64,000 bases of DNA. Source: Mya arenaria. Its lineage: Eukaryota; Mollusca; Bivalvia; Myida; Myidae. The notes beneath the pieces were generated by a model. It saw nothing but the letters and a program-made list of their open reading frames with translations. It searched no databases and had not been told where the DNA came from. Shown piece by piece: positions 10,501 to 46,142 of this stretch. The first letter of the stretch is position 1, and each line of letters starts with the position of its first letter. A program made the translations under genes and the position numbers. The stretch is from NCBI RefSeq assembly GCF_026914265.1, contig NC_069135.1:10514887-10578886 (forward strand), written 5' to 3'.

Positions 10501-11260
10501 TCACCCAACGTCACTTACAACAACACCAAACGTCAGTAACCAGAGGCACCAAACGTCACTTACCAGAAACACTAAACGTCGCTTAACCACAAAACCAAAA
10601 CGTCACTTACAAGATACACCAAACGTCGCGACACCAGAGACACCAAACAACTCTTAACCAGAGACACCATACAACTCTTAACCAGAGAAACCAAACTTCA
10701 CTAGACGAGATACACCAAACTACACCAAACCAGGGACACCTAACGTCACTAAACCAGAGACACCAAACGTCACTAAACCAGAGACACCAAACGTCACTAA
10801 ACCAGAGACACCAAACGTCACTAAACCAGAGACACCAAACGTCACTAAACCAGAGACACCAAACGTCACTAAACAAGAGACACCACTAAACCAGAGACAC
10901 CAAACGTCACTAAACCACAGACACCAAACGTCACTAAACCACAGACACCAAACGTCACTAAACCACAGACACCAAACGTCACTAAATCACAGACACCAAA
11001 CGTCACTAAACCAGAGACACCAAACGTACCTTAGCCAATCTTCGCTAAACCACAGACAATAAACGTCTTTAAAACACAGACACCAAACGTCTTTAAAACA
11101 CAGACACCAAACGTCTTTAAAACACAGACACCAAATGTCTTTAAACCAGAGACACCAAACGTAGACAAAGGACATCAAACGTCACTAAACCAGAGACACC
11201 AAACGTACCTTAGCCAAATAAACCATTCTTCGCTAAACCACAGACACTAGACATAATTAA
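7564..11260. repeat. 24-bp minisatellite (about 3.7 kb)
   Basis: Units of consensus actaaaccagagacaccaaa followed by cgtc, 24 bases long, repeat about 150 times. Copies are cleanest at 8580-9560 and 10740-11000 and degenerate towards the edges. Recurrent variants are cttt for cact, gaacca for aaacca and cacag for cagag. Because 24 is a multiple of three and the unit lacks stops in several frames, both strands show long open frames (plus strand KPETPNVT repeats at 8576-9616, minus strand VTFGVSGL repeats at 8269-9585). Four overlapping frames being open together, with variants that change amino acids freely, argues against coding. Confidence 0.96.
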
Positions 11261-14584: not shown

Positions 14585-15374
14585 TGTATCTTCCATGGCT
14601 GAAATTGCAGGATATAAAAGTCCATGTTGGGTAAACACATTTTTATCAACAGTACGTTTTCAAAATTAACATTATTTTAGCTTTATTTACATTTATGTTA
14701 TAAGTGAAAGGTCTGTAATTAATAAATGTATGTCGATCGATAATGTCCTTATATGATCTTGATCAATACCTGTTGCCTAAAGCATTGAAAAACAATGTTT
14801 ACAATTGGGCAAGATCATTTCTAGATACATTTTAGATGACCTTTATCGAGACCTTTTGATCTATTTCTGACGCTTAAGGCATAACAACTTCATCACAGCA
14901 AAAATATTATAGCAGAATTATAAAGAGCTCAAGCAAGTTGACAAATTTACATTTCGGCATTCATGTTAACCATTTCCATTTGAAAATAAGCATAATTAAA
15001 GGAAAAAATATAATAAGTAAAGCATGTACAACTGGCTCATGGAAATATCTGATAGTGTCTATTTCAAATGTATAACCCCTGTTATAAAGTTACAACAATT
15101 ATATGTAATATCTATATGTTGGAGAGTTTGTATTGTAAAAAATACCGCCAACCCATTTGTCTAAAACAGAATACAAACCAATATAGGAATATAAGAGATG
15201 TAATGCAAATTGTTTTTTGTCTGAGCACAGTCACCGAAAAAAAACATTACACACCCAAAGGCTTTTGAGTTGGCAGGTTTTCAAATTAAGAAATTAAACG
15301 GGATTTCCTGCCTTTATGATTGCACGCTCTCTTTTGGCCTCATTTGAATTGGAAATGAAAGGGAAAGCTTTTAG
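14585..15374. other. Non-coding spacer before the giant foldback element
   Basis: AT-rich. No gene, repeat array or RNA recognised. The last bases are the genomic flank of the 9-bp target duplication. Confidence 0.6.
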
Positions 15375-15383
15375 CCAACTAAT
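15375..15383 (+). repeat. Left 9-bp target-site duplication of outer foldback element
   Basis: ccaactaat here is repeated exactly at 34855-34863, immediately outside the two ends of the 19.5-kb inverted-repeat structure. Confidence 0.88.
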
Positions 15384-15397
15384 ATGTTCGTGAAGTT

Positions 15398-15690
15398 GGC
15401 AGCCCAGCAGCCCAGCAGCGTGAAGTCAGCAGCCCAGCAGACTGGCAGCCTAGCAGCGTGAAGTCAGCAGCCCAGCAGCGTGAAGTCAGCAGCCCAGCAT
15501 ACTGGCAGCCCAGCAGCGTGAAGTCAGCAGCCCAGCAGACTGACAGCCCAGCAGCGTGAAGTCAGCAGCCCAGCAGACTGAGAGCCTAGCAGCGTGAAGT
15601 CAGCAGCCCAGCAGCATAGCAGCGCGAGTTAGCAGTCTGGAAGCCTGACGGCGTGAAGTCAACAGCTGAGCAGCTGAGCAGATTAGCAGC
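15398..15690 (+). repeat. Terminal 38-bp tandem repeats of left outer arm
   Basis: The unit is cagcgtgaagtcagcagccc followed by agcagactggcagccc, 38 bases, with 22-base short variants. Each unit carries GTGAAGTCAGCAG, close to the element's own terminal GTGAAGTTGGCAG, so the array looks like an amplification of the end sequence. Confidence 0.9.
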
Positions 15691-15719
15691 TATGCTAAGA
15701 CGAACTCGTGTGAAGTTTC

Positions 15720-18700
15720 CAGTCGGTTTTCAGTTTTCAAAGACAAAAAAAAAACATAAAAATGAAAAAAATCTTCACAATAGTTGGTTTGCAAAACAAA
15801 CCTTAAAATGAAGCAAAAATACTAAATTGAATAAGTTAAAAACATTAACACTATTCCCTTTTTGTGAACTAAAGAAATCGACTTTTCAATTTCACGCTTC
15901 TGACAGCCCCGGGCAGCCCCATGTGTTTTATTGTATTTTTACGCGGGCTGTATACATGGCTTCTAGCATATGAAACGTTCGAATGATAACAAGTTTAATG
16001 ACTTAACAACACGGAAAATTCATGTTTTCAAAGCCGAAAAAAAATGAAAAAAATCATTCACAATAATTCGTTTGCAAAATACGCTTTAAATGACGCAAAC
16101 TACTTAAATGAATACTTTTTCAACATTTACACTATTCTTTGAGTGTGAACTAAAAACATCATTTTACTCCACTTTTCTATTTTAGTTTTCTGGCAGCCCC
16201 CAGCAGCCCCGGGCAGCCCCAGGCAGCCCTGGGCAGTTTATGGTATTTTTACCTGGGCTGCATACATGGCTTCTAGTATATGAAACGTTCGAATGATAAC
16301 AAGTTTAATGACTTAACAACACGGAAAATTCAAAATTCATGTTTTCAAAGCCGAAAAAAATGAAAAAAAATCATTCACAATAGTTCGTTTGCAAAATACT
16401 CTATAAATGACGCAAAATACTAAAATGAATACATTTTCAACATTCACACTATTCTTTTTGTGTGAACTAAAAACATCACTTAACTCCATTTTTCTATTTT
16501 AGTTTTTTGGCAGCCCCGAGCAGACCCGGGCAGCCCCGGGCAGCCCCGGGCAGCCCCAGGCAGCCCTGGGCGTTTTATGGTATTTTACTCGGGCTAGATA
16601 CATGGCTTCTAGTATATGAAACGTTCGAAGTTTCCCGTCGTTTTTGTAAAAAAAAGCGCGTCTTCAAATTCAAAAACCTTCATTTTGCCATTTAAGCTGT
16701 AGATTCCCCTTACCACACCGCGCATCAAAGCCTTGTATGCTGAATATTGTCTTTTCTTACAACACGGAAAATCCAGAAAATCAGGTTTTCAAAGCCGAAA
16801 AATTGAAGAAAAATACATTCATAAACGTTCGTTTGCAAAACAACCCTTTAATTGACGCAAAAATACTCAAATGAATCATTTAAAAACAATTACACTACTC
16901 TTTTTGTGTGAACTAAAAACATCACTTTACTCCACTTTTCGACTTTAGTTTTCTGGCAGCCCCCAGCAGCCCCCAGCAGCCCCGGGCAGCCTGAAGCGTA
17001 TAACGATATTTTTACACTGGCTAGATACAAGGCTCTAACTATGTGTAACGTTCGGATAATTCAAAGTTTATTGACTTTAAAGCAAAGATAAGATGTAAAA
17101 TGTTACAGAACACTAATTATTTAACGTAATCTTGATAAAATTTCACTCGATTTTTATCGCTCTCCTAAGACGAAATCGTGCGAAGTTTCCCGTCGTTTTT
17201 GTAAGAAAAAAGCGCGTCTTCAAATTCAAAACACTTCATTTTGCCATTTAAGCTGTAATTTAGTTTCCCCTTACCACACTACGCATCAGAGCGTTATATG
17301 CTGAATATTGTCTTTTCCAACAACAAGGAAAATTAAGAAATTCATGTTTTCAAAGCCGAAAAAATGAAAAAAAAAAAATCACAAAAGATCGTTTGCAAAG
17401 CACTCTTTAAATGACGCAAACATACTCAAATGAATACTTTTTCAACATTTACACTATTTTTTGTGTGAATTTAAAACATCACTTTACTCCACTTTTCGAC
17501 TTTAGTTTTCTGGCAGCCCCCAGCAGCCCCGGGCAGCCTGAAGCGTATAACGATATTTTTACACGGGCTGGATACAAGGCTTTAACGATGTGTAACGTTC
17601 GGATGATTCCAAGTTTAATGACTTTAAAGCAAAGATAAGATGTAAAATGTTAAAGAACACTAATTATTTAACGTAATCTTGATAAAATTTCACTCGATTT
17701 TTATCGCTCTGCTAAGACGAAATCGTGCGAAGTTTCCCGTCGTTTTGGTAAAAAAAGCGCGTCTTCAAATTCAAAACACTTCATTTTGCCATTTAAGCTG
17801 TAATTTAGTTTCCCCTTACCACACTACGCATCAGAGCGTTATATGCTGAATATTGTCTTTTCTAACAACACGGAAAATTCAGAATTTCATGTTTTCAAAG
17901 CCGAAAAAAAAACAAAAACAAAAAAAATCATTCACAACAGTTCGTTTGCAAAGCACTCTTTAAATGACGCAAACATACTCAAATGGATACTTTTTCAACA
18001 TTTACACTATTTTTTGTGTGAACTAAAAGCATCACTTTACTCCACTTTTCGACTTTAGTTTTCTAGCAGCCTGGGACAGCCCAGGGCAGCCTCAAGCGTA
18101 TAACGATATTTTTACACGGGCTGGATACAAGGTTTTAACTATGTGTAACGTTCGGATGATTCCAAGTTTAATGACTTTAAAGCAAAGATAAGACGTAAAA
18201 TGTTAAAGAACACTAATTATTTAACGTAATCTTGCAACAATTTCACTCGATTTTTATCGCTCTGCTAAGACGAAATCGTGCGAAGTTTCCCGTCGTTTTG
18301 GTTAAAAAAAAGCGCGTCTTCAAATTCAAAACACTTCATTTTGCCATTTAAGCTGTAATTTAGTTTCCCCTTACCACACTACGCATCAGAGCGTTATATG
18401 CTGAATATTGTCTTTTCTAACAACACGGAAAATTCAGAATTTCATGTTTTTAAAGCCGAAAAAAATCAAAAAAATCATTCACAACAGTTCGTTTGCAAAG
18501 CACTCTTTAAATGACGCAAACATACTCAAATGAATACTTTTTCAACATTTACACTATTTTTTTGTTTGAACTAAAAACATCACTTTACTCCACTTTTCGA
18601 CTTTAGTTTTCTAGCAGCCTGGAACAGCCCAGGGCAGCCTCAAGCTTATAACGATATTTTTACACGGGCTGGATACAAGGCTTTAACTATGTGTAACGTT

Positions 18701-18990
18701 CGGATGATTCCAAGTTTAATGACTTTAAAGCAAAGATAAGATGTAAAATGTTACAGAACACTAATTATTTAACGTAATCTTGCTACAATTTCACTCGATT
18801 TTTATCGCTCTGCTAAGACGAAATCGTGCGAAGTTTCCCGTCGTTTTGGTAAAAAAAGCGCGTCTTCAAATTCAAAACACTTCATTTTGCCATTTAAGCT
18901 GTAATTTAGTTTCCCCTTACCACATTACGCATCAGAGCGTTATATGCTGAATATTGTCTTTTCTAACAGCACGGAAAATTCAGAAATTCA
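15720..18990 (+). repeat. Left-arm tandem units (about 310 bp, then about 545 bp)
   Basis: Outer units at roughly 15730, 16030 and 16340 are short (about 310 bases) and diverged. Four inner units starting near 16790, 17350, 17890 and 18444 are about 545 bases and nearly identical. Each has a poly-A-rich stretch, a cluster of gcagcccc triplet-like repeats, and ttatatgctgaatattgtct. The gain in length and identity towards the centre is mirrored in the right arm. Confidence 0.9.
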
Positions 18991-19661
18991 TGTTTTCAAA
19001 GCCGAAAATAATCATACTAGTAGTTGGAGTCATAACTGAAGCTGTAAAAGTGGCAACAACAACAGTATCAACAGCAGCGTCAGTTGTTTTAGGGGATGCA
19101 AAGTCATCACAATATCGGTGGTGATGATGATTGCGGTGGTGGTGGCGTCGCTGGTGATTTTGCGATGTTGATGACAGTGGCAATAGCAGAAACAGTAGTG
19201 GTAGTATGGACAGCAAAAACTGAAGCATTACCAGCTGTATTACTAAGATTTGAAGCGCACATACCAAATGACCAAACATGCTCACCTAATATATCTATTT
19301 AAACTTCAATAGAACATAGTCGGTTCTGTTCGGGGTTATATACTTTTTTTACAGACACGATCGTGGGAAGTCATTTAGTATTTTTAGAGGTTGTGGGGAG
19401 GGGGGGGGGGGGGGGCAATATAATACACAAAACTAGTCACTCAAGGATGATGATTTTATGTCGGCCAAAATATGTTATTACACAGATCAAGGTATGAAGA
19501 AAATGCAAGATGCATCTGTTATACGAAAATGAATTCACAGTGCCCTAGAATGTGTTCATGATGATGTAAACACAATTGAAGTAGATTTGACATTCGAAGT
19601 TCAGTTTCACCAATATGATATATTTTCAAGTTTCGATTGTATTTTACATGGTGTTTACGTA

Positions 19662-19826
19662 TACAGTACAACTCCGTTGGCTCTAACTCGTTTGGCCCGA
19701 ATTCCTCGTTGGCCCGAAAATGTTTCATTATACTGAAGGTAGCTATTCCCGCTTGGCTCGAATTTTCCGAGGCTCGAGGTATTTTTGCCGGTCGGTATGA
19801 GTTCGAGGCAATCGGGTTCGACAGTA
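19662..19826. mobile_element. Small pogo/Tc1-type MITE in left arm
   Basis: Imperfect terminal inverted repeats, tacagtacaactccgttggc against tactgtcgaacccgattgcc, bound 165 bases. The same element sits at the matching place in the right arm (30195-30358), so it was already there when the arms were last copied or homogenised. Confidence 0.55.
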
Positions 19827-20113
19827 CTAACGAGTTTTATAAAAAAATACAGTGATCAACGGCAAACCTTTAAAAATGAATAATTAAGAGATTTCGTATC
19901 TATTATAAAATCCGAAGTCAATCAAGCTTCCTTTGTAAAATTAATATCTATACGCTAAGTAAAACCCCTAAATACATTAGATTGATAAATACAACTAGAT
20001 TTATATAAGGCATTACAGGTTACATTTACATTACAAATAAAACGGTTTTCATAAGCGTACCATTTTGATTAACAGCTGCCACCTGTTTAAAACAGTTGAA
20101 TGTTACTCATTAA

Positions 20114-20156
20114 AGCTGCACTCTCACAGAAATGGTATAACTGTGAGAGTGCAGCT
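20114..20156. repeat. Perfect 16-bp-arm hairpin
   Basis: agctgcactctcacag (20114-20129) pairs with ctgtgagagtgcagct (20141-20156) across an 11-base loop. It resembles the ends of a widespread bivalve repeat collapsed into a snapback. Found only in the left loop region. Confidence 0.75.
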
Positions 20157-20183
20157 GTTATTAAAGACCAACAAGATAGTTTA

Positions 20184-22099
20184 GGCCACAACAAATTGAT
20201 CATTTGTTCTACGGATTTTGCCCAAAAAAAGTAGGAGCGAGCGAGCGAAAAAAAAATAAAAATACTTTTTTTTTAAATTTAAGGCAAATCAGAGGCGAGC
20301 GCAAGGCGAAAAATTAAAAAAAAAATAAAAAAGCATATTTGTTACCAAATTTATCATACAATTATGTCAAGAAATGCTTTTTAATTGCAAAAATATGTTC
20401 AGTTATTAATGAAAAGGTTTTGATTGTATCACAGTGACATGAAAATCCCTCTCAATATTTAACAAATGGCAATAAGGTCCAGTGCTTTACTATTAACTTC
20501 AATTTAAACGTGGATTATTGTAAAGACAACATTCCTCATAGTAACATACAATTATTCGAAGACCAAAAAGAAAACTATTGTATTCATTCCGCAACTTACT
20601 ATTACAAAAAAAACATTTTAGACTTGTAAGAGTTATTCATGATTTGAGCATTTCTAAATTTTGGGTCAGGTCTAAATTTGAACCTCTTGAAGCACATGAT
20701 TAAATTGGTGTCAACTACTAGTGACTTTGACATTTCAGAAGATTGAAAATGTAAATAACACAGAGAACATATCTAAAAAAGACACTGTGGATTAAATTGC
20801 GGGACAACATAAATGAAGCAGTATCAAACAAATCTGCAAATGTGGCACCAGTCATTATATTAGAGCAGGTGGTGGAATAAAGATATTTCCCTTTAAAGAA
20901 CCCGCCTTTACCCCGAACCTATGGTTTATAGGTCCGTGCCTTGAAAAAGAATATCATGTCGGCCTCCATAGCTTCAATGCCCATAAGAAACAGGCCACTT
21001 TAATTACAGGCCATTTTATACAAATGGATCAAAGAAAACAAGTGGATAAAAACGAAGAATTGAGAAAATTAAAACAGTCATTTTACATATAAAAGGTTTT
21101 ATTTTCTGATTTTACTGATGTTTTTTATACTGTCCATGTGTATGTAATGCAGTAGTCAATTGTAACCACGCCCCAAGGTCCGGGGAATAGCGGGGACTTT
21201 GATTTTCAGTCCAGCCAACCCCGGGTATATCCACTGCATTAACCCGGCACTGTGGGGCCACCTTGAAGGTAAAAACTTGGCCCATTTCCCCGACTATCCC
21301 TGGTATACCCCAGGACCTGGGGGGGGAGGGGGCGTGGATTGACTGGTTCATAAATTCAACGTACAGGCTGTTTCTAAAACATTTACAAGTCCTACTATTT
21401 TTATCTGTTTATAACGATTATGATTATATGAAAACTGGGAAATGCATTTTAGAAAATTTAAAAAATAACTCACCAAAACATGTTCAATTGTGTTAAGTCG
21501 TGTATCCGTGTATTTTAATATAAGTTTTGCACTCAAAATCCGATTTAGTTATTATTTAACACAAAATTTTGAGTACAAAACAATGAATTACTTAAAACAC
21601 ACATAGATAATTATTGCCTTCGACGCTGTTAAACTGTTGTTGTTTACTGAAGACTGTAATCCATTGACTTTGACACTGATTTTCATTTAAAAACGTGTAT
21701 TTTACATTACGAAAACTGAAAGTAACCCGAAAATTAATACCGGAAATAAATAACAACGGTGCGTCCTGCAAAATATTCCCGACAAAAAAGACTGTCAACA
21801 AAAATCGGCTGTTTTGCGGTTACCCGGACCTGATTTTGTCCTGACACGAGGAAATTTTGCTCGCGAAGAATGTAAAGCATGGAAATGCCTTCAAAAAAGG
21901 CGAAGTTGACGTTGAAGGATTAAATTCTTAGTAAAAGAACTTCAGAAAATAGAGGAAATTCAGAAGTAAACAGAAAAAATAATATGCGCGGCCAAATAGT
22001 AAGTGCGGGCGCAAACAAAAAGTTTTTTTTATTTTTTTTTCGTTTTTCGAATTTTAGGTGCGGCAAATCCGACGAACAAATGATCAATTTGTTGTGGCC
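20184..22099. mobile_element. PIF/Harbinger-like non-autonomous transposon
   Basis: Terminal inverted repeats of about 38 bases start ggccacaacaaattgatcat and end with the complement. The element is flanked by TTA at 20181-20183 and 22100-22102. A 3-bp TTA duplication and GGCC-starting ends fit the PIF/Harbinger superfamily. Over 1.9 kb I see no DDE transposase or Myb-like frame. A smaller MITE lies inside (21150-21345). Confidence 0.72.
21150..21345. mobile_element. GC-rich snapback MITE nested in the Harbinger-like element
   Basis: The ends cagtagtcaat...ccacgcccc and ggggcgtggattgactg are inverted copies. The inside also folds (ccccaaggtccgggg against ccccaggacctgggg). It is much richer in GC than its surroundings. 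No coding potential. Confidence 0.6.
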
Positions 22100-22753
22100 T
22101 TATGTATAAGTTTATATTAATTTTAACTTGTCAATAATTACGTATAACACTTAATACTTCTTAATATCTTTCTTGGCTAAATTAAATACATTCTTCCAAA
22201 TCTTGAACAAAACCGCAGCAAACCTCGGCAAAATAACATGAGAATTTGACCTTTGATTCTCGGTCAATTAGTGGTTAATGTGTAGCTAAAGTTGACTCTC
22301 ACGTAGAAATGAAAACTGGAAAAAAATGGCTGGTATTTCATGGCATGATAAAGAAGTGCAGCTTTTAAGCTTTTTTTTAAATTCTGAAATGTGTGAACGG
22401 GAATATGGGAACAGTTTCAGTATCGGTAAACTCACAAAACTAAACTGCAACAATCTATGTTTTACACATAAAAGCTTCAATCATCCTGAATATAACCCAT
22501 ACATAATATTTATAATAAGCCACACATGTATTACAAAACAATATGTTCTGATGTCATAGAAGAAACTTAATTTGTCCAAATTATCGCTTCAAATCAAATC
22601 TTAATCGGCAGGAATAGAATAAAATAAAACCTATCTAAAATTCTCAATATCAAATTGCGTAAATATTTTATCTTCTGCGATTGGTTTCTACCGTACATGA
22701 AGCAGATGCCAGTCAAACCAGCTGAAAAAATAATAGAATGCATAATCATCACC

Positions 22754-22916
22754 AAGATAAGGCGGGGCTTATCAGTTGCCCGGCGCTTTCCTCCATGATC
22801 TCTAACAATCTCTAACAATAATGAACTGACATGACGCAGACTGCCTGTCAGACTAGCCGCTTCAAATAAGACTGACCAATCAGCGTCCAATATGGGCGGG
22901 GCTTATAAGTAACCCG
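22754..22916 (+). promoter_or_regulatory. Promoter-like cluster (CCAAT, GC box, TATA)
   Basis: ggcggggcttatcagttgcc at about 22760 recurs as ggcggggcttataagtaacc at about 22893. The second copy is preceded by two CCAAT boxes (gaccaatcagcgtccaatat) and contains TATAA. No gene follows. It could drive a non-coding transcript or be a relic promoter; evidence is motif only. Confidence 0.25.
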
Positions 22917-23639
22917 TTGTTATCAATCGATGTTACTCTAGAGTTCCGACAAAAGGAAAATAGGATGCAAAAATTCTTGACTTTTAAGGAAACGCAAAAT
23001 GAATGAATCCTCCAAATATATCGATCGTTTAATGTAAATTTTTGATTTAAATAATATTCGTAAAAGTAGGAAATATCATTGTGAGTACATGGAATCTATA
23101 AGTGTATACTAGTGACGTTATTTTGCGATGTATTTATATTTTAAAATGTGTATCATTCTTGTGTATAAAATAAAGCATTTTGTTTGTTAAGATATACATT
23201 TAAGGTATTTTTTTTAAAGATTTAACAAAAAAGAATAAATAAATTATGACCTAAGATTACAATAAATATAAACATTTTTAAATGTCACAAATCACCTGAT
23301 ATCCAGAAAAGTGTACCTTACCGACTTCGTTTTTTGCGCAGTATCAAATAATCTAACACCTATACCTGTTTCTTCAATACGTATTGTATTAAAACGTTTA
23401 ACATGACGTTATACGTAATATTATTATTGTTAATAAGAGCTTAGTTTTGAACAAACCACTGATCAATACTATTTACCAGCAATTGTTTATTTCTGTTTAA
23501 TTCATAATTCAACATGTTTTTTTTTTCTGTTAAACTCCGAATAATAAAAATTATCAAATCATTATAGCACTGATTATAAATGAACTATAGTTAAATAGGT
23601 TATATAAGCTCATTTAGGGTGGTTATAACTCACATACAA

Positions 23640-23892
23640 ACACACGCACATAACGCAGGTACAATAAAAGCACGCACGAAAGAATGCGTAAAAACTCACC
23701 CCACAAACCATCCTACATTCAAGAACGCGTGCGAACGCAGGCAAGTATGCGGACACGCTCGCGCGCGCGCGCGCGCACACACGCACATACACGCACACAC
23801 GCACGCACGCACCCACGCACGCACGCACGCACGCACGCAACCCCCCCCCCCCCACACACACACACAATCGCACACACGCACCCACGCACACA

Positions 23893-23951
<59 letters not shown>

Positions 23952-23952
23952 G
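23640..23952. repeat. (CA)n/(GCAC)n/(CG)n microsatellite
   Basis: A compound purine-pyrimidine tract made of acgc, gcgc, a run of c and a long (ca)n. Open frames crossing it on both strands are artefacts. Such alternating tracts can adopt Z-DNA. Confidence 0.97.
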
Positions 23953-24195
23953 ATACGATAAAATATATGTTCCAAATGGTAAAAATGATGATCCTGAAGT
24001 TAAATGGTACAAAAAAAGTTTATAAACGAAAATAGTATGTACAGTCTTTGAAGCCCGCAAATATATATATTGTGCGTGTAAGTATCATTGTTTTAACTGT
24101 TATTAAAGCTTACTGAGCTTATTGAACCCGTACATGAGCTAAACGTGACGTCAATGCTTTTTTATAGTGCGCATATTCTATTCTTTAAGGTATAC

Positions 24196-24204
24196 TATTT
24201 AAGT
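24196..24204 (+). repeat. Left 9-bp target-site duplication of inner foldback element
   Basis: tatttaagt here is repeated exactly at 29420-29428, directly outside the two inverted ends of the inner element. Confidence 0.88.
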
Positions 24205-24228
24205 AGCTGTGTGAAGTTAGCTAAACAT

Positions 24229-25140
24229 ACGACATTGGACATTGGACATTCAAAATCGAATGTTGTGCTGGCACGACATTGGACATTCAAAAGCGAATGT
24301 TGTGCTGGCACGACATTGGACATTGGACATTCAAAAGTGAATGTTGTGCTGGCACGACATTGGACATTGGACATTCAAAAGTGAAAGTCGTGCTAGCACG
24401 ACATTGGACATTGGACATTCAAAATCGAATGTTGTGCTGGTACGACATTGGACATTGGACATTCAAAAGTGAAAGTCGTGCTAGCACGACATTGGACATT
24501 GGACATTCAAAATGGAATGTTGTGCTAGCACGACATTGGACATTGGACATTCAAAAGTGAAAGTCGTGCTAGCACGACATTGGACATTGGACATTCATAA
24601 TCGAATGTTGTTCTGGCACGACATTGGACATTGGACATTCAAAAGAGAATGTTCTGCTGGCACGACATTGGACATTGGACATTCAAAAGTGAAAGTCGTG
24701 CTTGCACGACATTGGACATTGGACATTCAAAATCGAATGTTTTGCTGGCACGACATTGGACATTGGACATTCAAAAGTGAAAGTCGTGCTAGCACGACAT
24801 TGGACATTGGACATTCAAAATCGAATGTTGTACTGGCAAGACATTGGACATTGGACACTCAAGAGTGAAAGTCGTGCTAGCACGACATTGGACATTGGAC
24901 ATTCAAAACCGAATGTTGTGCTGGCACGACATTGGACATTGGACATTCAAAAGTGAAAGTCGTGCTAGCACGACATTGGACATTGGACATTCAAAATCGA
25001 ATGTCGTGCTGGCACGACATTGGACATTCAAAAGTGAAAGTCGTGCTAGCACGACATTGGACATTGGACATTCAAAATCGAATGTTGTGCTGGCACGACA
25101 TTGGACATTGGACATTCAAAAGTGAAAGTTGTGCTAGCAG
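24229..25140 (+). repeat. 44/88-bp palindromic satellite, left inner arm (about 20 units)
   Basis: A 44-base unit (cattggacattggacattca, then a variable core) alternates between core A, aaaatcgaatgttgtgctgg plus cacga, and core B, aaaagtgaaagtcgtgctag plus cacga, making an 88-base dimer. Core B contains the perfect 14-base palindrome tcgtgctagcacga. All frames are open across it, so the overlapping MDIGHSKVKVV-type frames are artefacts. Confidence 0.96.
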
Positions 25141-26572
25141 TTAGCACATTCAAATCAATGTATGACATGTTTTATGAATGAATTTTTTTTTACCGTTTAA
25201 ATAATTTTGATGGCATGCAATACTCGGATTTTTGTTTGTTTGAGATATTGTCTTGAAATTATTTGAAAAGGGTCAGAGATCACAAAGCAATGAACCATTA
25301 TAAATTTATTAGCACCAAGAGAGCATTGTCATGACGATTCCATCGAAATATTTGAAACTTAAGCATGATTCAGATATATAAGATGTCACATATGCAGAGA
25401 AAGATTCAAATGAATATACTTATGAATGGTCGTGGATTATATGTAGACAAACAGTGATAATGCTTTCAAAATGGCATATTTTAATAAGCTTAATTGTTTA
25501 CACACCACTGCTACACATCTAGTACCATTTATAAAGGAAGTGAAGATAATTATATCCACAGTATATAATGACATATGAAAATATAGACATGCATTGATGA
25601 TTCCTACAAGTATAAATGTAATCGTCCGTACATCTTTTTTATCTGGTTTTACGTAAACACAAAAAAATATTGTCAATGAGTCGATAAAGTAACCTATTCC
25701 TGCCTGTCGACTTGTTTTTTTATCGACTCAGTTAGTCGAACATGCTACGTCGTCTTCATTTGGTAAAGTTTATATGAAATAATTGTGTTCGATAAACCTT
25801 TTTGATATTTATAAGTCGACAGAATTACACAAAGCGTTTTATAATCAATCGCATCGACATTAAAGAATTCAAAATGACGTCTTCATCACATACGACATAA
25901 GTTCTTATAGGTTTTACAGAATATACAATTTATACATGTAAAATGTGACACCAGAGCCATTGGAAATGGCATCTTGGGCAGAACTGACAATGGTTAAAGG
26001 GTTGAAAGAAACAAAGCGCAAATAATTATATAAACCCAACAAATGTGCACTTCAGTATGTGTTTATCTACAGAGCTTTAGAATAATTATATTACATTAAT
26101 GAATGTGTCTGCATTTACATGGGAATATGTATGTATATCAATCGAAAGGATTGTTTTAATACAACTCTCAATAACAATGGATGTGACTTAAGCAACATAC
26201 ACACAGCTAAACTTGTCAATGCATAAACCATTGGCGATAATGCTACATTTTGATGCATGGGGATCCCATATAATTTTGGTATTATTTTAAAGGGTACTCC
26301 TGACAGATAATTAATGAGTAAAAATGACCTATGTCCAACAATTATTATTTGTATACTGGTTGTCGTTTCATTATATTTTTTCTCTTAATATTTACCACTT
26401 CCAATGGATGCCTAAATAATATTTGGTCACTATGAATAGACAGATATACGTTATTATAAACCATATTTTAAAAAATAAAAGCCAAGTTGAATGTCGTTAT
26501 TTAACACAATAATTTGAATGGACAAATTAGAATTGCAGCCTTATCACCAGTCCAAGATTTCGGATATATATA

Positions 26573-27020
26573 TTTCTGCCACCTCAGAACAGTAGATTCA
26601 AACATTTGTCCATGCGTGAAATTCTTATCTTCCCAACGGGCAAAGATAAACAAGTACCCGTACGGAACTCTTTTTTATTGCCTTCACTTTGCTGCATCCA
26701 GAACTATTTAAAGAACAATTTGACTATTAACATAATCTGAATCACTGCGCGAATATCTATGACAACCAGGAATTGTCATATATCTATGCGCACATTATTT
26801 TCACTACGCACAAAAAAGTTCCAGCGATAAAATACATTTTTACATTATTTTGTTTAACTGCGGTGAGAGAGAAAAACATCTACCATAGTCGCTCGTGTAA
26901 GATAGGTTCATACCAACCCTCGCACAGGGTGTTCTGCGGAAACATTTAAACCTCGTTTCCGCAAAAGACCCTACGCTCGGGTTGGGCTGAACCCATCTTA
27001 CACTCTCGGCCATGGAAGAT
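26573..27020 (-). mobile_element. Second copy of the 14-kb MITE-like element
   Basis: This is the reverse complement of the element at 14035-14584: ttctgccacctcag at the left, then actacgcacaaaaaagttcc, catctaccatagtcgctcgt and a hairpin head ending cggccatggaagat. The hairpin loop here carries an extra small hairpin (gcggaaac and gtttccgc). It lies inside the loop of the inner foldback element. Confidence 0.7.
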
Positions 27021-27073
27021 ATAATAGGCTACATAATGTGATTCTTGAGAAAATAAAATAAACTTGAATGCTT

Positions 27074-27253
27074 CTACACTTGACAAAAAATAGCGTGAGA
27101 CGGTGTCCAAGTGTGAAGGTCGTGTGGTAATGGACCTAGCTGTCCAACCAGCCCGTCATACCACACGTTTCCAAAGGTTTCTGATTGAAGTACTGCACAA
27201 TAGTGCGTCTCTCTGTGCATCGTGACTCCTGCAAGTTGATACACGACTTTCAT
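27074..27253 (-). pseudogene. Coding relic resembling a USP-like His-box C-terminus
   Basis: The minus strand from 27253 reads MKVVYQLAGVTMHRETHYCA, continues with a WYDGL motif, and stops at 27076-27074. The pattern YxLxGVxxHxxxHYxA followed by W-YDG resembles the catalytic-histidine region of C19 ubiquitin-specific proteases or related modules carried by some invertebrate transposons. Only about 59 residues remain. Upstream the frame runs straight into the satellite, whose core aaaagtgaaagtcgtg resembles the first codons of this relic. It could be a captured host gene end or the last piece of an element-encoded protein. Family assignment is tentative. Confidence 0.35.
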
Positions 27254-29396
27254 TTTTGAATGTCCAATGTCCAATGTCGTGCCAGCACAACATTCGATTT
27301 TGAATGTCCAATGACGTGCTAGCACGACTTTCACTTTTGAATGTCCAATGTCCAATGTCGTGCCAGCACAACATTCGGTTATGAATGTCCAATGTCCAAT
27401 GTCGTGCTAGCACGACTTTCACTTTTGAATGTCCAATGTCCAATGTCGTGCCAGCACAACATTCGATTTTGAACGTCCAATGTCCAATGTCGTGCTAGCA
27501 CGACTTTCACTTTTGAATGTCCAATGTCCAATGTCGTGCCAGCACAACATTCGTTATGAATGTCCAATGTCAATGTCGTGCTAGCACGACTTTCACTTTT
27601 GAATGTCCAATGTCCAATGTCGTGCCAGCAAAACATTCGATTTTGAATGTCCAATGTCCAATGTCGTGCTAGCACGACTTTCACTTTTGAATGTCCAATG
27701 TCGTGCCAGCACAACATTCGATTTTGAATGTCCAATGTCCAATGTCGTGCTAGCACGACTTTCACTTTTGAATGTCCAATGTCCAATGTCGTGCCAGCAC
27801 AACATTCGATTTTGAATGTCCAATGTCCAATGTCGTGCTAGCACGACTTTCACTTTTGAATGTCCAATGTCCAATGTCGTGCCAGCACGACATTCGATTT
27901 TGAATGTCCAATGTCCAATGTCGTGCTAGCACGACTTTCACTTTTGAATGTCCAATGTCCAATGTCGTGCCAGCACAACATTCGTTTTGAATGTCCAATG
28001 TCCAATGTCGTGCTAGCACGACTTTCACTTTTGAATGTCCAATGTCCAATGTCGTGCCAGCACAACATTCATTTTGAATGTCCAATGTCCAATGTCGTGC
28101 TAGCACGACTTTCTTTTGAATGTCCAATGTCCAATGTCGTGCTAGCACAACATTCTTTTGAATGTCCAATGTCCAATGTCGTGCTAGCACGACTTTCACT
28201 TTTGAATGTCCAATGTCCAATGTCGTGCAGCACAACATTCGATTTTGAATGTCCAATGTCCAATGTCGTGCCAGCACAACATTCGATTTTGAATGTCCAA
28301 TGTCCAATGTCGTGCTAGCACGACTTTCACTTTTGAATGTCCAATGTCCAATGTCGTGCCAGCACAACATTCGATTTTGAATGTCCAATGTCCAATGTCG
28401 TGCCAGCACAACATTCATTTTGAATGTCCAATGTCGTGCCAGCACAACATTCGATTTTGAATGTCCAATGTCGTGCTAGCACGATTTTCACTTTTGAATG
28501 TCCAATGTCCAATGTCGTGCCAGCACAACATTCGATTTTGAATGTCCAATGTCCAATGTCGTGCCAGCACGACTTTCATTTTGAATGTCCAATGTCCAAT
28601 GTCGTGCCAGCACAACATTCGATTTTGAATGTCCAATGTCCAATGTCGTGCTAGCACGACTTTCACTTTTGAATGTCCAATGTCCAATGTCGTGCCAGCA
28701 CAACATTCGATTTTGAATGTCCAATGTCCAATGTCGTGCTAGCACGACTTTCACTTTTGAATGTCCAATGTCCAATGTCGTGCCAGCACAACATTCGATT
28801 TTGAATGTCCAATGTCCAATGTCGTGCTAGCACGACTTTCACTTTTGAATGTCCAATGTCCAATGTCGTGCCAGCACAACATTCGGTTTTGAATGTCCAA
28901 TGTCCAATGTCGTGCTAGCACGACTTTCACTTTTGAATGTCCAATGTCCAATGTCGTGCCAGCACAACATTCGATTTTGAATGTCCAATGTCCAATGTCG
29001 TGCCAGCAGAACATTCTCTTTGAATGTCCAATGTCCAATGTCGTGCTAGCACGACTTTCACTTTTGAATGTCCAATGTCCAATGTCGTGCCAGCACAACA
29101 TTCGATTTTGAATGTCCAATGTCCAATGTCGTGCTAGCACGACTTTCACTTTTGAATGTCCAATGTCCAATGTCGTGCCAGCACAACATTCGATTTTGAA
29201 TGTCCAATGTGCAATGTCGTGCTAGCACGACTTTCGCTTTTGAATGTCCAATGTCCAATGTCGTGCCAGCACAACATTCGATTTTGAATGTCCAATGTCC
29301 AATGTCGTGCTAGCACGACTTTCGCTTTGAATGTCCAATGTCCAATGTCGTGCCAGCACAACATTCGATTTTGAATGTCCAATGTCCAATGTCGTA
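27242..29396 (-). repeat. 44/88-bp palindromic satellite, right inner arm (about 49 units)
   Basis: This is the reverse-complement counterpart of 24229-25140 with the same A/B alternation, more than twice as many units, and several units with small deletions (for example near 28110-28230). The different copy number shows that the arms evolve by slippage or unequal exchange. Confidence 0.96.
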
Positions 29397-29419
29397 TGTT
29401 TAGCTAACTTCACACAGCT

Positions 29420-29428
29420 TATTTAAGT
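29420..29428 (+). repeat. Right 9-bp target-site duplication of inner foldback element
   Basis: tatttaagt, identical to 24196-24204. Confidence 0.88.
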
Positions 29429-29597
29429 CATGGACTATCATCAGTTCAATTTGTGCTTTAATGAAACCCTGATAACGAATTCGAACGCGCAACATGAACA
29501 TATTGAAGTGCAGGCAGTATCAATTAGTTGGCTACTAATTTTGTGCTATGAACTGTTTTCGGCTATGTAATTACCTCTCTAATGAATTATACCGGAC

Positions 29598-29639
29598 ACA
29601 CGCACGTACGCACGCACGCACGCACGCACACACGCACAC

Positions 29640-29683
<44 letters not shown>

Positions 29684-29692
29684 ACACTTGAG
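29598..29692. repeat. (CA)n/(GCAC)n microsatellite
   Basis: A dinucleotide tract reading CA on the plus strand, as at 23.7 kb. It is therefore not in mirror orientation and not part of the palindrome. Confidence 0.95.
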
Positions 29693-29939
29693 GTTGAAAT
29701 TTCATAGCGGTAAACGAAGAATTGATAAAAAAATGTCTGTAATTGTAGCTGGAACGCAAAATATGACAGACGTCTCATCATTTTATGTCAGTGGTATATT
29801 TTGAACATTGTTAGTTTCAAAACTGTTCTGAATATTGAAAAAGTAATATTAGTCCTCAACTGGGCATATGCTCTTCTATTTGTATACCAATTTTCAGATC
29901 TTAACTCGAACATTCGTTCATAGTCGCGTTCCATCTTAA

Positions 29940-30085
29940 AGGTATGTTTTGCAAACAAACTATTGTGAAGAATTATTTTTCGTGATGAAAGAGAAAACTA
30001 AATCCATCATATAACGCTTTGATGCGTGATATGGAAAGGTGAAACTAAACTACCGCTTAGATGGCAAAATTAAATGTTTCCAATG
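29940..30085 (-). repeat. Diverged fragment of the 545-bp arm unit
   Basis: ttttgcaaacaaactattgt and catataacgctttgatgcgt followed by ggcaaaattaaatg match the inner part of the 545-bp unit on the same strand as the right arm. It is older and decayed. No equivalent was seen on the left side. Confidence 0.65.
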
Positions 30086-30194
30086 TTTAGAAGCTTGATT
30101 GATTTCGCATTTTATAATAGATACGAAAACTCTTAATTATTCATTTTTAAAGGTATGCCGTTGATCACTGTATTTTTTTTATAAAACTCGTTAG

Positions 30195-30358
30195 TACTGT
30201 CGAACCCGATTGCCTCGAACTCATACGGACCGGCAAAAATACCTCGAGCCTCGGAAAATTCGAGCCAAGCGGGAATGGTTGCTTTCAGTATAATGAAACA
30301 TTTTCGGGCCAACGAGGAATTCGGCCAAACGAGTTAGAGCCAACGGAGTTGTACTGTA
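30195..30358. mobile_element. Small pogo/Tc1-type MITE in right arm
   Basis: Reverse-complement counterpart of 19662-19826, with the same imperfect terminal repeats and nearly the same length. Confidence 0.55.
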
Positions 30359-31009
30359 TACGTAAACACCATGTAAAATACAATCGAAACTTGAAAATAT
30401 ATCATATTGGTGAAATTGAACTTCGAATGTCAAATCTACTTCAATTGTGTTTACATCATCATGAACACATTCTAGGGCACTGTGAATTCATTTTCGTATA
30501 ACAGATGCATCTTGCATTTTCTTCATACCTTGATCTGTGTAATAACATATTTTGGCCGACATAAAATCATCATCCTTGAGTGACTAGTTTTGTGTATTAT
30601 ATTGCCCCCCCCCCCCCTCCCACAACCTCTAAAAATACTAAATGACTTCCCACGATCGTGTCTGTACAAAAAGTATATAACCCCGAACAGAACCGACTAT
30701 GTTCTATTGAAGTTTAAATAGATATATTAGGTGAGCATGTTTGGTCATTTGGTATGTGCGCTTCAAATCTTAGTAATACAGCTGGTAATGCTTCAGTTTT
30801 TGCTGTCCATACTACCACTACTGTTTCTGCTATTGCCACTGTCATCAACATCGCAAAATCACCAGCGACGCCACCACCACCACAATTATCATCACCACCG
30901 ATATTGTGATGACTTTGCATCCCCTAAAACAACTGACGCTGCTGTTGATACTGTTGTTGTTGCCACTTTTACAGCTTCAGTTATGACTCCAACTACTAGT
31001 ATAATTATT

Positions 31010-34000
31010 TTCGGCTTTGAAAACATGAATTTCTGAATTTTCCGTGCTGTTAGAAAAGACAATATTCAGCATATAACGCTCTGATGCGTAATGTGGTAAG
31101 GGGAAACTAAATTACAGCTTAAATGGCAAAATGAAGTGTTTTGAATTTGAAGACGCGCTTTTTTTACCAAAACGACGGGAAACTTCGCACGATTTCGTCT
31201 TAGCAGAGCGATAAAAATCGAGTGAAATTGTAGCAAGATTACGTTAAATAATTAGTGTTCTGTAACATTTTACATCTTATCTTTGCTTTAAAATCATTAA
31301 ACTTGGAATCATCCGAACGTTACACATAGTTAAAGCCTTGTATCCAGCCCGTGTAAAAATATCGTTATACGCTTGAGGCTGCCCTGGGCTGTCCCAGGCT
31401 GCTAGAAAACTAAAGTCGAAATGTGGAGTAAAGTGATGTTTTTAGTTCAAACAAAAAATAGTGTAAATGTTGAAAAAGTATTCATTTGAGTATGTTTGCG
31501 CCATTTAAAGAGTGCTTTGCAAACGAACTGTAGTGAATGATTTTTTTTTTATTTTTTTTCGGCTTTAAAATCATGAAATTCTCAATTCAGCATATAACGC
31601 TCTGATGCGTAGTGTGGTAAGGGGAAACTAAATTACAGCTTAAATGGCAAAATGAAGTGTTTTGAATTTGAAGACGCGCTTTTTTTAACCAAAACGACGG
31701 GAAACTTCGCACGATTTCGTCTTAGCAGAGCGATAAAAATCGAGTGAAATTGTAGCAAGATTACGTTAAATAATTAGTGTTCTTTAACATTTTACGTCTT
31801 ATCTTTGCTTTAAAGTCATTAAACTTGGAATCATCCGAACGTTACACATAGTTAAAGCCTTGTATCCAGCCCGTGTAAAAATATCGTTATACGCTTGAGG
31901 CTGCCCTGGGCTGTTCCAGGCTGCTAGAAAACTAAAGTCGAAAGTGGAGTAAAGTGATGCTTTTAGTTCACACAAAAAAATAATGTAAATGTTGAAAAAG
32001 TATTCATTTGAGTATGTTTGCGTCATTTAAAGAGTGCTTTGCAAACGAACTGTTGTGAATGATTTTTTTTTCGGCTTTAAAAACATGAAATTCTGAATTT
32101 TCCGTGTTGTTAGAAAAGACAATATTCAGCATATAACGCTCTGATGCGTAGTGTGGTAAGGGAAACTAAATTACAGCTTAAATGGCAAAATGAAGTGTTT
32201 TGAATTTGAAGACGCGCTTTTTTTAACCAAAACGACGGGAAACTTCGCACGATTTCGTCTTAGCAGAGCGATAAAAATCGAGTGAAATTGTAGCAAGATT
32301 ACGTTAAATAATTAGTGTTCTTTAACATTTTACGTCTTATCTTTGCTTTAAAGTCATTAAACTTGGAATCATCCGAACGTTACACATAGTTAAAGCCTTG
32401 TATCCAGCCCGTGTAAAAATATCGTTATACGCTTGAGGCTGCCCTGGGCTGTCCCAGGCTGCTAGAAAACTAAAGTCGAAAAGTGGAGTAAAGTGATGCT
32501 TTTAATTCACACAAAAAATAGTGTAAATGTTGAAAAAGTATTCATTTGAGTATGTTTGCGTCATTTAAAGAGTGCTTTGCAAACGAACTGTTGTGAATGA
32601 TTTTTTTTTTCGGCTTTAAAAACATGAAATTCTGAATTTTCCGTGTTGTTAGAAAAGACAATATTCAGCATATAACGCTCTGATGCGTAGTGTGGTAAGG
32701 GGAAACTAAATTACAGCTTAAATGGCAAAATGAAGTGTTTTGAATTTGAAGACGCGCTTTTTTTAACCAAAACGACGGGAAACTTCGCACGATTTCGTCT
32801 TAGCAGAGCGATAAAAATCGAGTGAAATTGTAGCAAGATTACGTTAAATAATTAGTGTTCTTTAACATTTTACATCTTATCTTTGCTTTAAAGTCATTAA
32901 ACTTGGAATCATCCGAACGTTACACATAGTTAAAGCCTTGTATCCAGCCGTGTAAAAATATCGTTATACGCTTGAGGCTGCCCTAGGCTGTCCCAGGCTG
33001 CTAGAAAACTAAAGTCGAAAAGTGGAGTAAAGTGATGCTTTTAGTTCCCACAAAAAAATAGTGTAAATGTTGAAAAAGTATTCATTTGAGTATGTTTGCG
33101 TCATTTAAAGAGTGCTTTGCAAACGAACTGTTGTGAATGATTTTTTTTTTCGGCTTTAAAAACATGAAATTCTGAATTTTCCGTGTTGTTAGAAAAGACA
33201 ATATTCAGCATATAACGCTCTGATGCGTAGTGTGGTAAGGGGAAACTAAATTACAGCTTAAATGGCAAAATGAAGTGTTTTGAATTTGAAGACGCGCTTT
33301 TTTTAACCAAAACGACGGGAAACTTCGCACGATTTCGTCTTAGCAGAGCGATAAAAATCGAGTAAAATTGTAGCAGATTACGTTAAATAATTAGTGTTCT
33401 GTAACATTTTACATCTTATCTTTGCTTTAAAGTCATTAAACTTAGAATCATCCGAACGTTACACATAGTTAAAGCCTTGTATCCAGCCCGTGTAAAAATA
33501 TCGTTATACGCTTGAGGCTGCCCTGGGCTGTTCCAGGCTGCTAGAAAACTAAAGTCGAAAAGTGGAGTAAAGTGATGCTTTTAGTTCACACAAAAAAATA
33601 GTGTAAATGTTGAAAAAGTATTCATTTGAGTATGTTTGCGTCATTTAAAGAGTGCTTTGCAAACGAACTGTTGTGAATGATTTTTTTTTTCGTTTTTTTC
33701 GGCGTTGAAAACATGAAATTCTGAATTTTCCGTGTTGTTAAGTCATTCAACTTGTAATTATTCGAACTTTTCATATACTAGAAACCATGTATCCTGCACG
33801 AGTAAAAATACCATAAAACGCCCGGGGCTGCCTGGGGCTGCTTGTGGCTGCTGGGGCTGCCAGAATGAAAACAGAAAAGAGGAGTAAAGTGATGTTTTTA
33901 GTTCACACTCAAAGAATAGTGTAAATGTGGAAAAAGTATTTATTTTAGTATTTTGTGTCATTTAAAGAGTATTTTGCAAGCGAATTATTGTGAATGATTT

Positions 34001-34260
34001 TTTTTTCATTTTTCATATACTAGAAGCCATGTATCCAGCCCGAGTCAAAATATTATAAAACGCCTGGGGCTGCCCGGGGCTGTCAGACGCTTGAAATCAA
34101 AAAGTAGAGTAAAGTGATCTCTTTAGTTCACAAAAAAGGAATAGTGTTCATGTTTTTAAATGATTCATTTTAGTATTTTTGCTTCAGTTCAAGGTGTGTT
34201 TTGTAAACCAGTGAATGATTATTTTCATTTTTTTATGTATTTCTTTTTGGCTTTGAAAAC
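31010..34260 (-). repeat. Right-arm tandem units (about 545 bp, then short)
   Basis: Five long units begin near 31010, 31560, 32075, 32612 and 33152; shorter diverged units follow to about 34260. They mirror the left arm, with one more long unit. Within the arm the long units are nearly identical. Confidence 0.9.
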
Positions 34261-34314
34261 TGAAAACCGACGGGATTCTTCACATGAGTTCGTCCGTCTT
34301 AGCATAGCTGCTAA

Positions 34315-34840
34315 TCTGCCCAGCTGCTCAGCTTTTGACTTCACGCCGTCAGGCTTCTAGACTGCTAACTCACGCTGCTATGCTGCTATGCTGCTAGTCT
34401 GCTAGACTGCTGACTTCACGCTGCTAGGATGTCGGTGTGCTTGGCTGCTGACTAAACGCTGCTAGGCTGCCAGTCTGCTGGGCTGCTGACTTCACGCTGC
34501 TGGGCTGCCAGTCTGCTGGGCTGCTGACTTCACGCTGCTTGGCTGCCAGTCTGCTGGGCTGCTGACTTCATGCTGCTGGGCTGCTGGGCTGCTGACTTCA
34601 CGCTGCTAGGCTGCCAGTCTGCTGGGCTGCTGACTTCACGCTGCTAGGCTGCCAGTCTGCTGGGCTGACTTCACGCTGCTGGGCTGCCAGTCTGCTGGGC
34701 TGCTGACTTCATGCTGCTGGGCTGCTGGGCTGCTGACTTCACGCTGCTAGGCTGTCAGTCTGCTGGGCTGCTGAGTTCACGCTGCTAGGCTGCCAGTCTG
34801 CTTACTTCACGCTGCTGGGCTGCTGGGCTGCCAGTCTGCC
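34315..34840 (-). repeat. Terminal 38-bp tandem repeats of right outer arm
   Basis: Complement of the 15398-15690 array (gctgctgacttcacgctgct, gggctgccagtctgctgg), with roughly twice the copies. Confidence 0.9.
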
Positions 34841-34854
34841 AACTTTACGAACAT

Positions 34855-34863
34855 CCAACTAAT
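34855..34863 (+). repeat. Right 9-bp target-site duplication of outer foldback element
   Basis: ccaactaat, identical to 15375-15383. Confidence 0.88.
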
Positions 34864-35476
34864 GGCTTCATCTCATGTTTCAGAGACACGTTTAGGATCG
34901 GGATGCCTAGCAGAAAGTTTCGGCTAAGCGCCAGCGGAATAATTGAGCATTAATTATCATCAATCTCTACTTTTTAGATTTCTTCAATTGTCCTTTCATT
35001 TATCTCGAACTGAAACATGGCCTTGGTGTAAGATGCTGCCTAAAGTTATAGTGGTGATCGTTGGATGATAACCTTGTACCTTTTACAGATGCTGCCTATA
35101 GTTGGAGTGGTAATCGGCAGATGATAACCTGGTGCCTTTTACAGATGCTGCCTACAGTTAGAGTGGTAATCCACGGATGAAGAACTGGTGCCTTTAATGA
35201 TGTCGTAGGTTTGATATATTCTTCGTTTATTTAAGTTCGATTGTGAAGATATTCTCAAAAATTGACGTGGCCTTGATTGGACTCGAGCCGCAGACCTATT
35301 GGGTATGATGCAAGTTACTATTCCAGTAAACCACTCTCACCCTATTTAAACAGCTTGTTGTCAGATACATTCTTACTATCTTTAATTGCCTAAATCTGGT
35401 TTCAAGCATACGTGAGGAAGGTTGTGTTGTTAAGAAGGGCCGTATAGTTGTTCCGTCCTTTTTCACCTTTCAAAAA
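34864..35476. other. Non-coding DNA with a triplicated 56-bp repeat
   Basis: Three copies of a 56-base unit beginning gatgctgccta start near 35032, 35088 and 35144. Nothing else recognised. Confidence 0.75.
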
Positions 35477-38073: not shown

Positions 38074-38173
38074 NNNNNNNNNNNNNNNNNNNNNNNNNNN
38101 NNNNNNNNNNNNNNNNNNNNNNNNNNNNNNNNNNNNNNNNNNNNNNNNNNNNNNNNNNNNNNNNNNNNNNNNN
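38074..38173. other. Assembly gap (100 N)
   Basis: Exactly 100 N, the conventional length for a gap of unknown size. The true distance and even adjacency across it are uncertain. Confidence 0.99.
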
Positions 38174-44976: not shown

Positions 44977-46142
44977 TGTCTGTATCTTACGGGCTATACC
45001 AGGTTACGCTATTTGTGCAATATGATTTTGATAAACTTAATGATTGTTTGAAATATTATCAAACAATTAAACGAGAGATAGCCGGACTGGCCAACACTGA
45101 CGGATGGAGAATCTCAACAGTTGAAAGCTTGAGCCGTGCGAACTGATAAAAGAACAAGGCTAATATTAGACGTAAGATTAGTGCGACATATTTCTATCGT
45201 TCTGTAACGCCCTCTACTACCCTTATATGTCCAAACATTTAACATTTTGGTGATAAATCTTGACCCAAATAAGCATGCATGTACGTCCATATGACAATCA
45301 CCGTATTTTAGTGATTTCTTCTTCACATGTCAAAGAACAACAAAGTATCGGCTTTAATGTTGTGAGACAATTTAATAAAACATTGTCATAGCTTAGCACT
45401 CCAATATTTGTTGTTGTATTGTCTTTTGTTAACGGCCATTGAGAATGACTCCACCAAGCTCAGTCTATTTCGAGCAAAATAATAAAAAAAAAACTTGAAT
45501 ATCATAATTTGGTAATATTAGTGTATGCATTTAAAAGAAATATACTATAGTAGTTATGATGGGAAAAAACATTCTCTAGAATCGATGAGATAAAACATTT
45601 GCAACTTCATTTATATTTTAGGCTTTATTTTAGGCCTGACATATGAATACCGTTTGTTATTTCAATAACAAAAGTGCATGTGTTTTAATTTCTGGCCAGC
45701 ATTTTTAAGCTTGAAGACTATCTCTTAGGCTACCTTTGGATAAAATAATGGTGGTACATATTATGATAGACTCTCATATTTCTAAACAGAAAACAATAAC
45801 TCTACTATCGGAATTAATCAGAACGAAATCATCGTTAAATGCCCGTATCTTAAAGGTACATGACTGCCTCAAGATAGCGTGTATTATCTGTGGCTGTTGA
45901 TCTTTCTAACGCGTGCCAATGTTCGATCATACTATCACGCCTCTGGAATCTTACCATCACGTCAATTTGTACTGCTGCATGTCTGCCTGCTGGTTTCTAC
46001 ATCGTAATACGTCCATCACCCTGAGCTGGTGGATTATAGTTTGAAGTTATTGTAGTTATTCTGTACGTGTGTGAACTTTTGGTCAGTTGTTACTTATTTA
46101 ATTGTGCCGGTAAATATTCAGACAACTTTATATATATATATT
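44977..46142. other. Upstream flank of SLC2A13-like gene
   Basis: Contains the presumed 5' UTR and promoter of the minus-strand transporter. No clear core promoter motif and no other gene. Confidence 0.5.

Follow-up and report, generated by a model that had tools for sequence, protein, structure and literature searches.

A mirrored element with tandem-repeat arms on contig C14

The window, that is, the whole 64,000-nucleotide stretch of Mya arenaria DNA analysed here, corresponds to C14:10514887-10578886 in a genome of 1.216 Gb assembled in 18 contigs. At window positions 15384-34854 lies an inverted-repeat element flanked on both sides by an exact 9-bp target-site duplication (TSD), CCAACTAAT. 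This element is a mobile element with mirrored tandem-repeat arms, and it belongs to a family with other members in the genome. On the + strand of the window, CCAACTAAT occurs only at 15375-15383 and 34855-34863, and its complement is present at one position, 29523. The left terminus, ATGTTCGTGAAGTTGGCAG, starts at 15384. The right terminus, which ends at 34854, is complementary to it but for one mismatch; element coordinates and flanking duplication agree with the initial annotation. That annotation described the whole as a giant palindrome, which is accurate for the mirrored arms (15384-19930 and 30090-34854) and inaccurate for the central 10 kb (19931-30089), which is not palindromic taken as a whole.

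The two arms are 94.1% identical over 3,323 aligned bases in their inner parts (16619-19930 versus 33334-30090) and 79.5% identical over 1,184 aligned bases in their outer parts. Tiers were defined by Tandem Repeats Finder and self-comparison. Each arm has its 38-bp array outermost; next come a GC-rich module built on 10-bp units and then the ~540-bp units, about five in number (unit length 522-556 bp), while a unique segment of ~0.9 kb lies innermost. The element thus has the long inverted repeats made of tandem subrepeats that characterize foldback elements, and the nested repeat classes in mirrored order noticed at the outset are found in both arms. Its features are as follows.

15375-15383, + strand: left TSD, CCAACTAAT; one copy only at the empty site
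15384-15402, + strand: left terminus, 'C-type' end, ATGTTCGTGAAGTTGGCAG then CCCAGCAG
15405-15614, + strand: left outer tier, 38-bp tandem array with the degenerate terminal motif in its units
15904-16571, + strand: left GC-rich module, 317-bp repeat with 10-bp GGCAGCCCCG units
16619-19011, + strand: left middle tier, about five units of 545-556 bp
19012-19930, + strand: left inner unique arm segment, 861 bp of which served as genome query
19931-30089, no strand assigned: core, comprising two nested insertions and ~3 kb also present in a sister copy
30090-31004, - strand: right inner unique arm segment
31005-33740, - strand: right middle tier, about five units of 522-540 bp
34382-34839, - strand: right outer tier, 38-bp tandem array, mirrored
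34836-34854, - strand: right terminus, 'A-type' end, ATGTTCGTAAAGTTGGCAG then ACTGGCAG
34855-34863, + strand: right TSD, CCAACTAAT

Family members and their target-site duplications

The terminal 19-mer has 98 exact occurrences in the genome (48 forward and 50 reverse) and 157 at up to one mismatch; the same pattern read backwards, used as a control, has 0 genome occurrences. Convergent exact ends no more than 45 kb apart were taken as pairs, giving 22 pairs (two with one end in common) and, with the window pair, 23, of 1.05-38.2 kb. The 9-bp flanks agree at all nine bases in 12 pairs and at eight in 4, so that 16 of the 23 match at eight or more. Among 504 mismatched pairings, one agreed at nine bases, none at eight and seven at seven. 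We attribute the single perfect control match to the comparison of the left flank at C9:40.6 Mb with the right flank at C11:5.9 Mb, two copies whose right flank is common to both. A further check covered 12 unpaired exact ends on C1-C3, with the other 42 listed unpaired ends outside it. Four of the 12 have a diverged partner no more than 9.7 kb away, with TSDs matching at 9, 8, 8 and 7 of 9 bases and sizes of 1,884, 3,272, 188 and 2,468 bp.

TSD-supported pairs span 188 bp to 34.6 kb, and the number of ~540-bp units per arm ranges from 5 to 10 across two copies. As in foldback elements, arm and middle size differ between copies, and duplications of ~9 bp adjoin a constant terminal base in several of them; a 9-bp TSD also falls within the range of about 8-11 bp of Mutator-like elements (MULEs). 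The initial annotation had proposed a multicopy foldback family whose other copies would carry 9-bp duplications at the same terminal base. The genome-wide copies with their 98 exact termini, the 16 well-matched pairs and an empty site described below bear out this proposal.

Several loci show rearranged or unusual copies. C6:44896482-44902184 and C6:45220538-45225785 agree in both flanks, at 150/150 bp in one and 109/150 ungapped in the other. They lack a matching TSD and are probably a segmental duplication of a copy already rearranged. The C9:40630514 and C11:5935273 copies share the right flank (98/120 ungapped) and not the left, the pattern expected of ectopic recombination through the element or of interchromosomal duplication. 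At C9:30757821 and C9:30757825 two element ends adjoin with three bases between them. Single ends at C3:75.22 and 75.40 Mb (L024 and L025) have an outer flank identical at 120/120 bases and represent a duplicated locus. At about 8400-9700 of locus L021 (C3:37353431-37363430), the terminus and ACTGG are followed by an unrelated ~1.3-kb tandem array with repeated open reading frame (ORF) peptides; it looks as if element ends can couple to other arrays.

Two end types and a repeated terminal motif

In each of the 23 pairs, one end continues GCAGACTGG ('A-type') and the opposite end GCAGCC ('C-type'). The four diverged-end pairs likewise combine one GCAGCC end with one GCAG[A/T]CT end. The five bases past the 19-mer read ACTGG at 26, CCCAG at 27 and otherwise at 4 of 57 exact ends.

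The motif CGTGAAGTTGGCAG was sought at up to three mismatches in five full elements of 1.05, 3.0, 3.4, 16.2 and 19.5 kb. Forward sites number 7, 12, 9, 12 and 9 at one end of these elements and reverse sites 4, 8, 11, 10 and 11 at the opposite end. They lie mostly 38 bp apart, with none between the two end clusters; ten shuffled versions, permuted inside 50-base blocks, averaged 0 to 0.6 sites. Galileo, as PMC4079207 describes it, offers the analogy on which these repeats are read as a putative array of binding sites.

Nested insertions and a sister copy

A sister copy of 16,152 bp lies at C3:78247107-78263258 with the TSD TACGTTTTT. With the window copy flipped, identity between the two copies is 97.1% in one aligned core stretch and 97.3% in a second. 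Window 20184-22099 is absent from the sister, which has one TTA where the window copy has two; window 24205-29419 is likewise absent, with one TATTTAAGT in the sister and two in the window copy. Because both inserts are missing there and each TSD is single, the C3 copy represents the empty site for both.

20184-22099, no strand assigned: nested insertion of 1.9 kb that the sister lacks, bounded by GGCCACAACAAATTGATCA inverted termini and a TTA duplication
24205-29419, no strand assigned: nested 5.2-kb second-family foldback with terminus AGCTGTGTGAAGTTAGCTAAACATA and TSD TATTTAAGT, absent from the sister
24229-25139 and 27242-29395: 44-bp arrays of the nested second-family foldback

Together the two inserts make up 7.1 kb of the 19.5 kb. 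Subtracting them and the extra TSD copies by coordinate arithmetic leaves 12,328 bp, and the original view of the 19.5 kb as one element gives way to an element of about 12.3 kb plus two inserts missing from the sister. The 1.9-kb insert, with its GGCCACAAC termini and TTA duplication, presumably resembles PIF/Harbinger elements. The 25-bp terminus of the second family has 511 exact occurrences in the genome; this family has GTGAAGTT-x-GC in common with the first, at equal offset from the end, and its TSD is likewise 9 bp.

A genome search with the 861-bp inner-arm query returned 40 matches at 87-100% identity (the best 40 of 3,134 candidates). Four inverted pairs among them lie ~3.1 kb apart (C3:78.25, C5:30.41, C6:4.14 and C3:85.02 Mb), and others 3.6-10.2 kb apart. 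This spacing suggests that one core was amplified many times, the cores compared being those of the C3:78.25-Mb copy and the window. Five inner-arm copies are 98.25-99.53% identical to one another. We considered homogenisation of the arms and draw no claim, as end-specific grouping is backed by 3 sites versus 1 and 1.

An empty site in an apparently doubled region of C14

A junction composed of the element's flanks around one CCAACTAAT has a perfect counterpart (130/130 bp) at C14:11122670-11122799, so that the single-CCAACTAAT empty site envisaged at the outset is found on the window's own contig, 592 kb away. The 1.2 kb around it contain one CCAACTAAT and lack the terminal motif; the flanks are 99.5% identical over 600 bp to window 14785-15383 and 99.2% over 609 bp to 34855-35463. 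The other 12 matches of the search comprise the two halves at the window and ten partial matches (52-54 bp, 87-90%), which form five pairs 579-595 kb apart.

A gap of 100 N lies at window 38074-38173. Sequence to its left has a copy ~592 kb downstream, and sequence to its right (44000-46000) has a single full-length copy 593 kb upstream, at 99%. These two probes suggest that two near-identical blocks of ~593 kb meet at the gap. On the simplest reading, the assembly may have retained the second block as an unpurged haplotype, in which case the window insertion would be heterozygous; if so, the family has been active recently. Precise excision from a true tandem duplication would also produce an empty site, and the 99.2-99.5% flank identity is compatible with that history too. 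We regard it as improbable, however, because the ~593-kb copies sit on either side of the N gap, where an unpurged haplotype would lie, and because precise loss leaving one TSD copy demands an additional event.

Other features of the window lie outside the element. Positions 3-4198 hold ~113 copies of a 37-bp unit, GTGACGTGAAGTAGTGCC..., containing CGTGAAGT, which resembles the element's terminal motif; this array may belong to a further foldback element, as an arm truncated where the window starts. Large minisatellite arrays with 24-bp and 37-bp units occupy 7570-11206 and 42581-43778, and an open frame at 44560-44976 resembles, by eye, a sugar transporter exon.

Foldback MULEs of a third family

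Two of the five MULE loci examined (L067 and L070) are foldback elements of a third family.

L067:885-6152: third-family foldback MULE, 5,268 bp, TSD GGTCACTCC, MULE-domain open frame of 529 aa
L070:153-6663: third-family foldback MULE, 6,511 bp, TSD ACCATCCAT, one TAG within the MULE match

Their arms of ~1.0-1.2 kb, with 192-bp, 204-bp and 18-21-bp repeats, enclose the MULE-domain open frame, and the two copies are 96.2-99.7% identical in the three longest aligned stretches. L067 has a second, inner end candidate that scored equally well; we preferred the outer one because L070 has matching ends. The terminus pattern of this family occurs 280 times in the genome. The two copies have asymmetric ends, but among the ends listed 97 of 100 read GGTGCGGGG, and end asymmetry was rejected as a general property of this family. 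The remaining loci, L066, L068 and L069, have no exact-TSD inverted pair, with weak inverted repeats in L066 (58%) and L069 (72%). Judged from their sequence, foldback MULEs with tandem-tiered arms exist in the Mya arenaria genome.

Probable movement in trans

The 98 exact termini, the 9-bp TSDs, the two-type end pairing and the empty site lead us to read the window element as a foldback mobile element. Very probably it is a non-autonomous cut-and-paste DNA transposon moved in trans, most likely by a transposase of the Mutator/MULE superfamily. By structure it is classed with the foldbacks; TSD length and the third family make the MULE superfamily its most likely affiliation. On this model, a MULE transposase encoded elsewhere would bind the terminal GTGAAGTTGGCAG motif and move the element by cut and paste, the 38-bp arrays, with their degenerate motif in mirrored order, would act as additional binding sites, and arm length would shift through gain and loss of tandem units. 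A bolder extension, which we put forward tentatively, is that one transposase lineage drives several foldback families and recognises GTGAAGTT-x-GC at a fixed offset from the end, with giant arms as binding-site arrays that tune transposition by length and unlike ends as a required directional pair.

Several observations weigh against the main reading of a non-autonomous foldback moved in trans by a MULE-type transposase. Seven of the 23 pairs match at only 1 to 4 of 9 TSD bases, and 8 of the 12 single ends checked on C1-C3 have no partner inside 9.7 kb. The ends of the third-family foldback MULEs differ from those of the window element. Furthermore, among the matches listed for PF20700 (119), PF10551 (54) and the L067 protein (88), none falls inside 30 family intervals, namely 22 exact-end intervals (two C8 pairs counted as one, the window element included), four diverged-end and four inner-arm pairs. 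An autonomous partner with these ends is therefore not known. Since these searches, the only ones made genome-wide for a transposase, scored the best candidates (114 of 290 for PF20700, 150 of 153 for PF10551 and 82 of 378 for the L067 protein), a partner could have been missed, and its absence is unproven. The same result agrees with the initial annotation, which saw no transposase in the element, and none of four ORFs from the element scored above a curated cut-off against Pfam. Scanning 45 kb inward from each of the 98 exact ends gave one PF20700 match, 38 kb from the unpaired end C5:45981219; we judged it a chance occurrence rather than a partner.

The same element could instead be moved by another transposase with a similar TSD size, of the PF20700 Mutator-like/Rehavkus, P/Galileo or Merlin type, rather than by a PF10551 MULE. 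Foldback shape has arisen with different transposases, P-type in Galileo for example (PMC3169594), and the genome has long PF20700 open frames of 682, 638 and 672 aa. Yet neither inverted tandem-repeat arms nor an exact GTGAAGTT turned up in the 9.5 kb surrounding each of the PF20700 copies L064 and L065. TSDs of the P superfamily (Galileo) are 7-8 bp, unlike the 9 bp here: the flanks match in the 9-bp register, and when they are scored in an 8-bp register none of the 23 pairs exceeds 5 of 8 matching bases (7 bp was not scored). We therefore consider such a transposase an unlikely substitute for a MULE. A segmental inverted duplication or an assembly-made palindrome is scarcely credible: although the apparent double assembly around the 100-N gap points to imperfect local assembly, copies with identical termini and differing 9-bp TSDs are dispersed over many contigs, and the window copy has a clean empty site.

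A foldback transposon moved in trans thus remains our preferred reading. In this family, foldback copies can be compared on the scale of chromosomes, with TSDs measured, the two end types in fixed pairing, and a natural empty site available for the window copy and for each of two nested insertions. It makes testable whether foldback tandem arms are transposase-binding arrays and what limits arm growth.

Comparison with known foldback systems

Published foldbacks that combine arms of tandem repeats with TSDs of 8-10 bp come from Drosophila, nematodes and mosquitoes (PMC4079207, PMC3169594, PMC5225508). The initial annotation called the window family undescribed in molluscs; a partial literature search, made without Repbase or Dfam comparison, found no foldback element of a mollusc, and two papers on oyster satellite DNA contain the term solely among their references.

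Tetris of Drosophila virilis is a foldback with terminal inverted repeats (TIRs) of up to 1.7 kb whose transposase was not found (PMC4079207). The window family resembles it in its long TIRs, three domains (including, in Tetris, ~220-bp tandem units), non-coding middle and 8-10-bp TSDs. Compared by description, Tetris has one main tandem class, whereas the arms of the window family reach 4.5-7.5 kb (two copies) with 38-bp and ~540-bp tiers. Tm1, a Mutator/foldback element of root-knot nematodes (PMC3169594), likewise has composite TIRs, variable tandem repeats, mostly 9-bp TSDs and non-autonomous classes, as well as two different short motifs, one per end. Unlike the window family, Tm1 has ~14-bp repeats and a known copy encoding a Phantom-type transposase. 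Muta1 of Aedes aegypti (PMC5225508), a MULE termed a type 2 foldback, is similar in its subterminal tandem repeats and 8-9-bp TSDs and has over 300 putative non-autonomous derivatives; it differs in its 145-bp TIRs with 12-bp repeats and in a transposase active in yeast. Rehavkus combines a MULE-related transposase carrying a PHD finger with a minisatellite ahead of the 3′ TIR (PMC6446971). The 9-bp TSD of the window family would fit; no transposase was found in that family, and a PHD domain was not searched for.

Within the same genome, the third-family foldback MULEs share tandem-tiered arms and exact 9-bp TSDs with the window family and differ in their termini, shorter arms and MULE-domain open frame. 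As far as the partial literature search shows, the window family is a new family of a known kind. What stands out is its arm size, its two main tandem tiers, its end-type pairing and the co-occurrence of three foldback families in its genome, one of them inserted into another.

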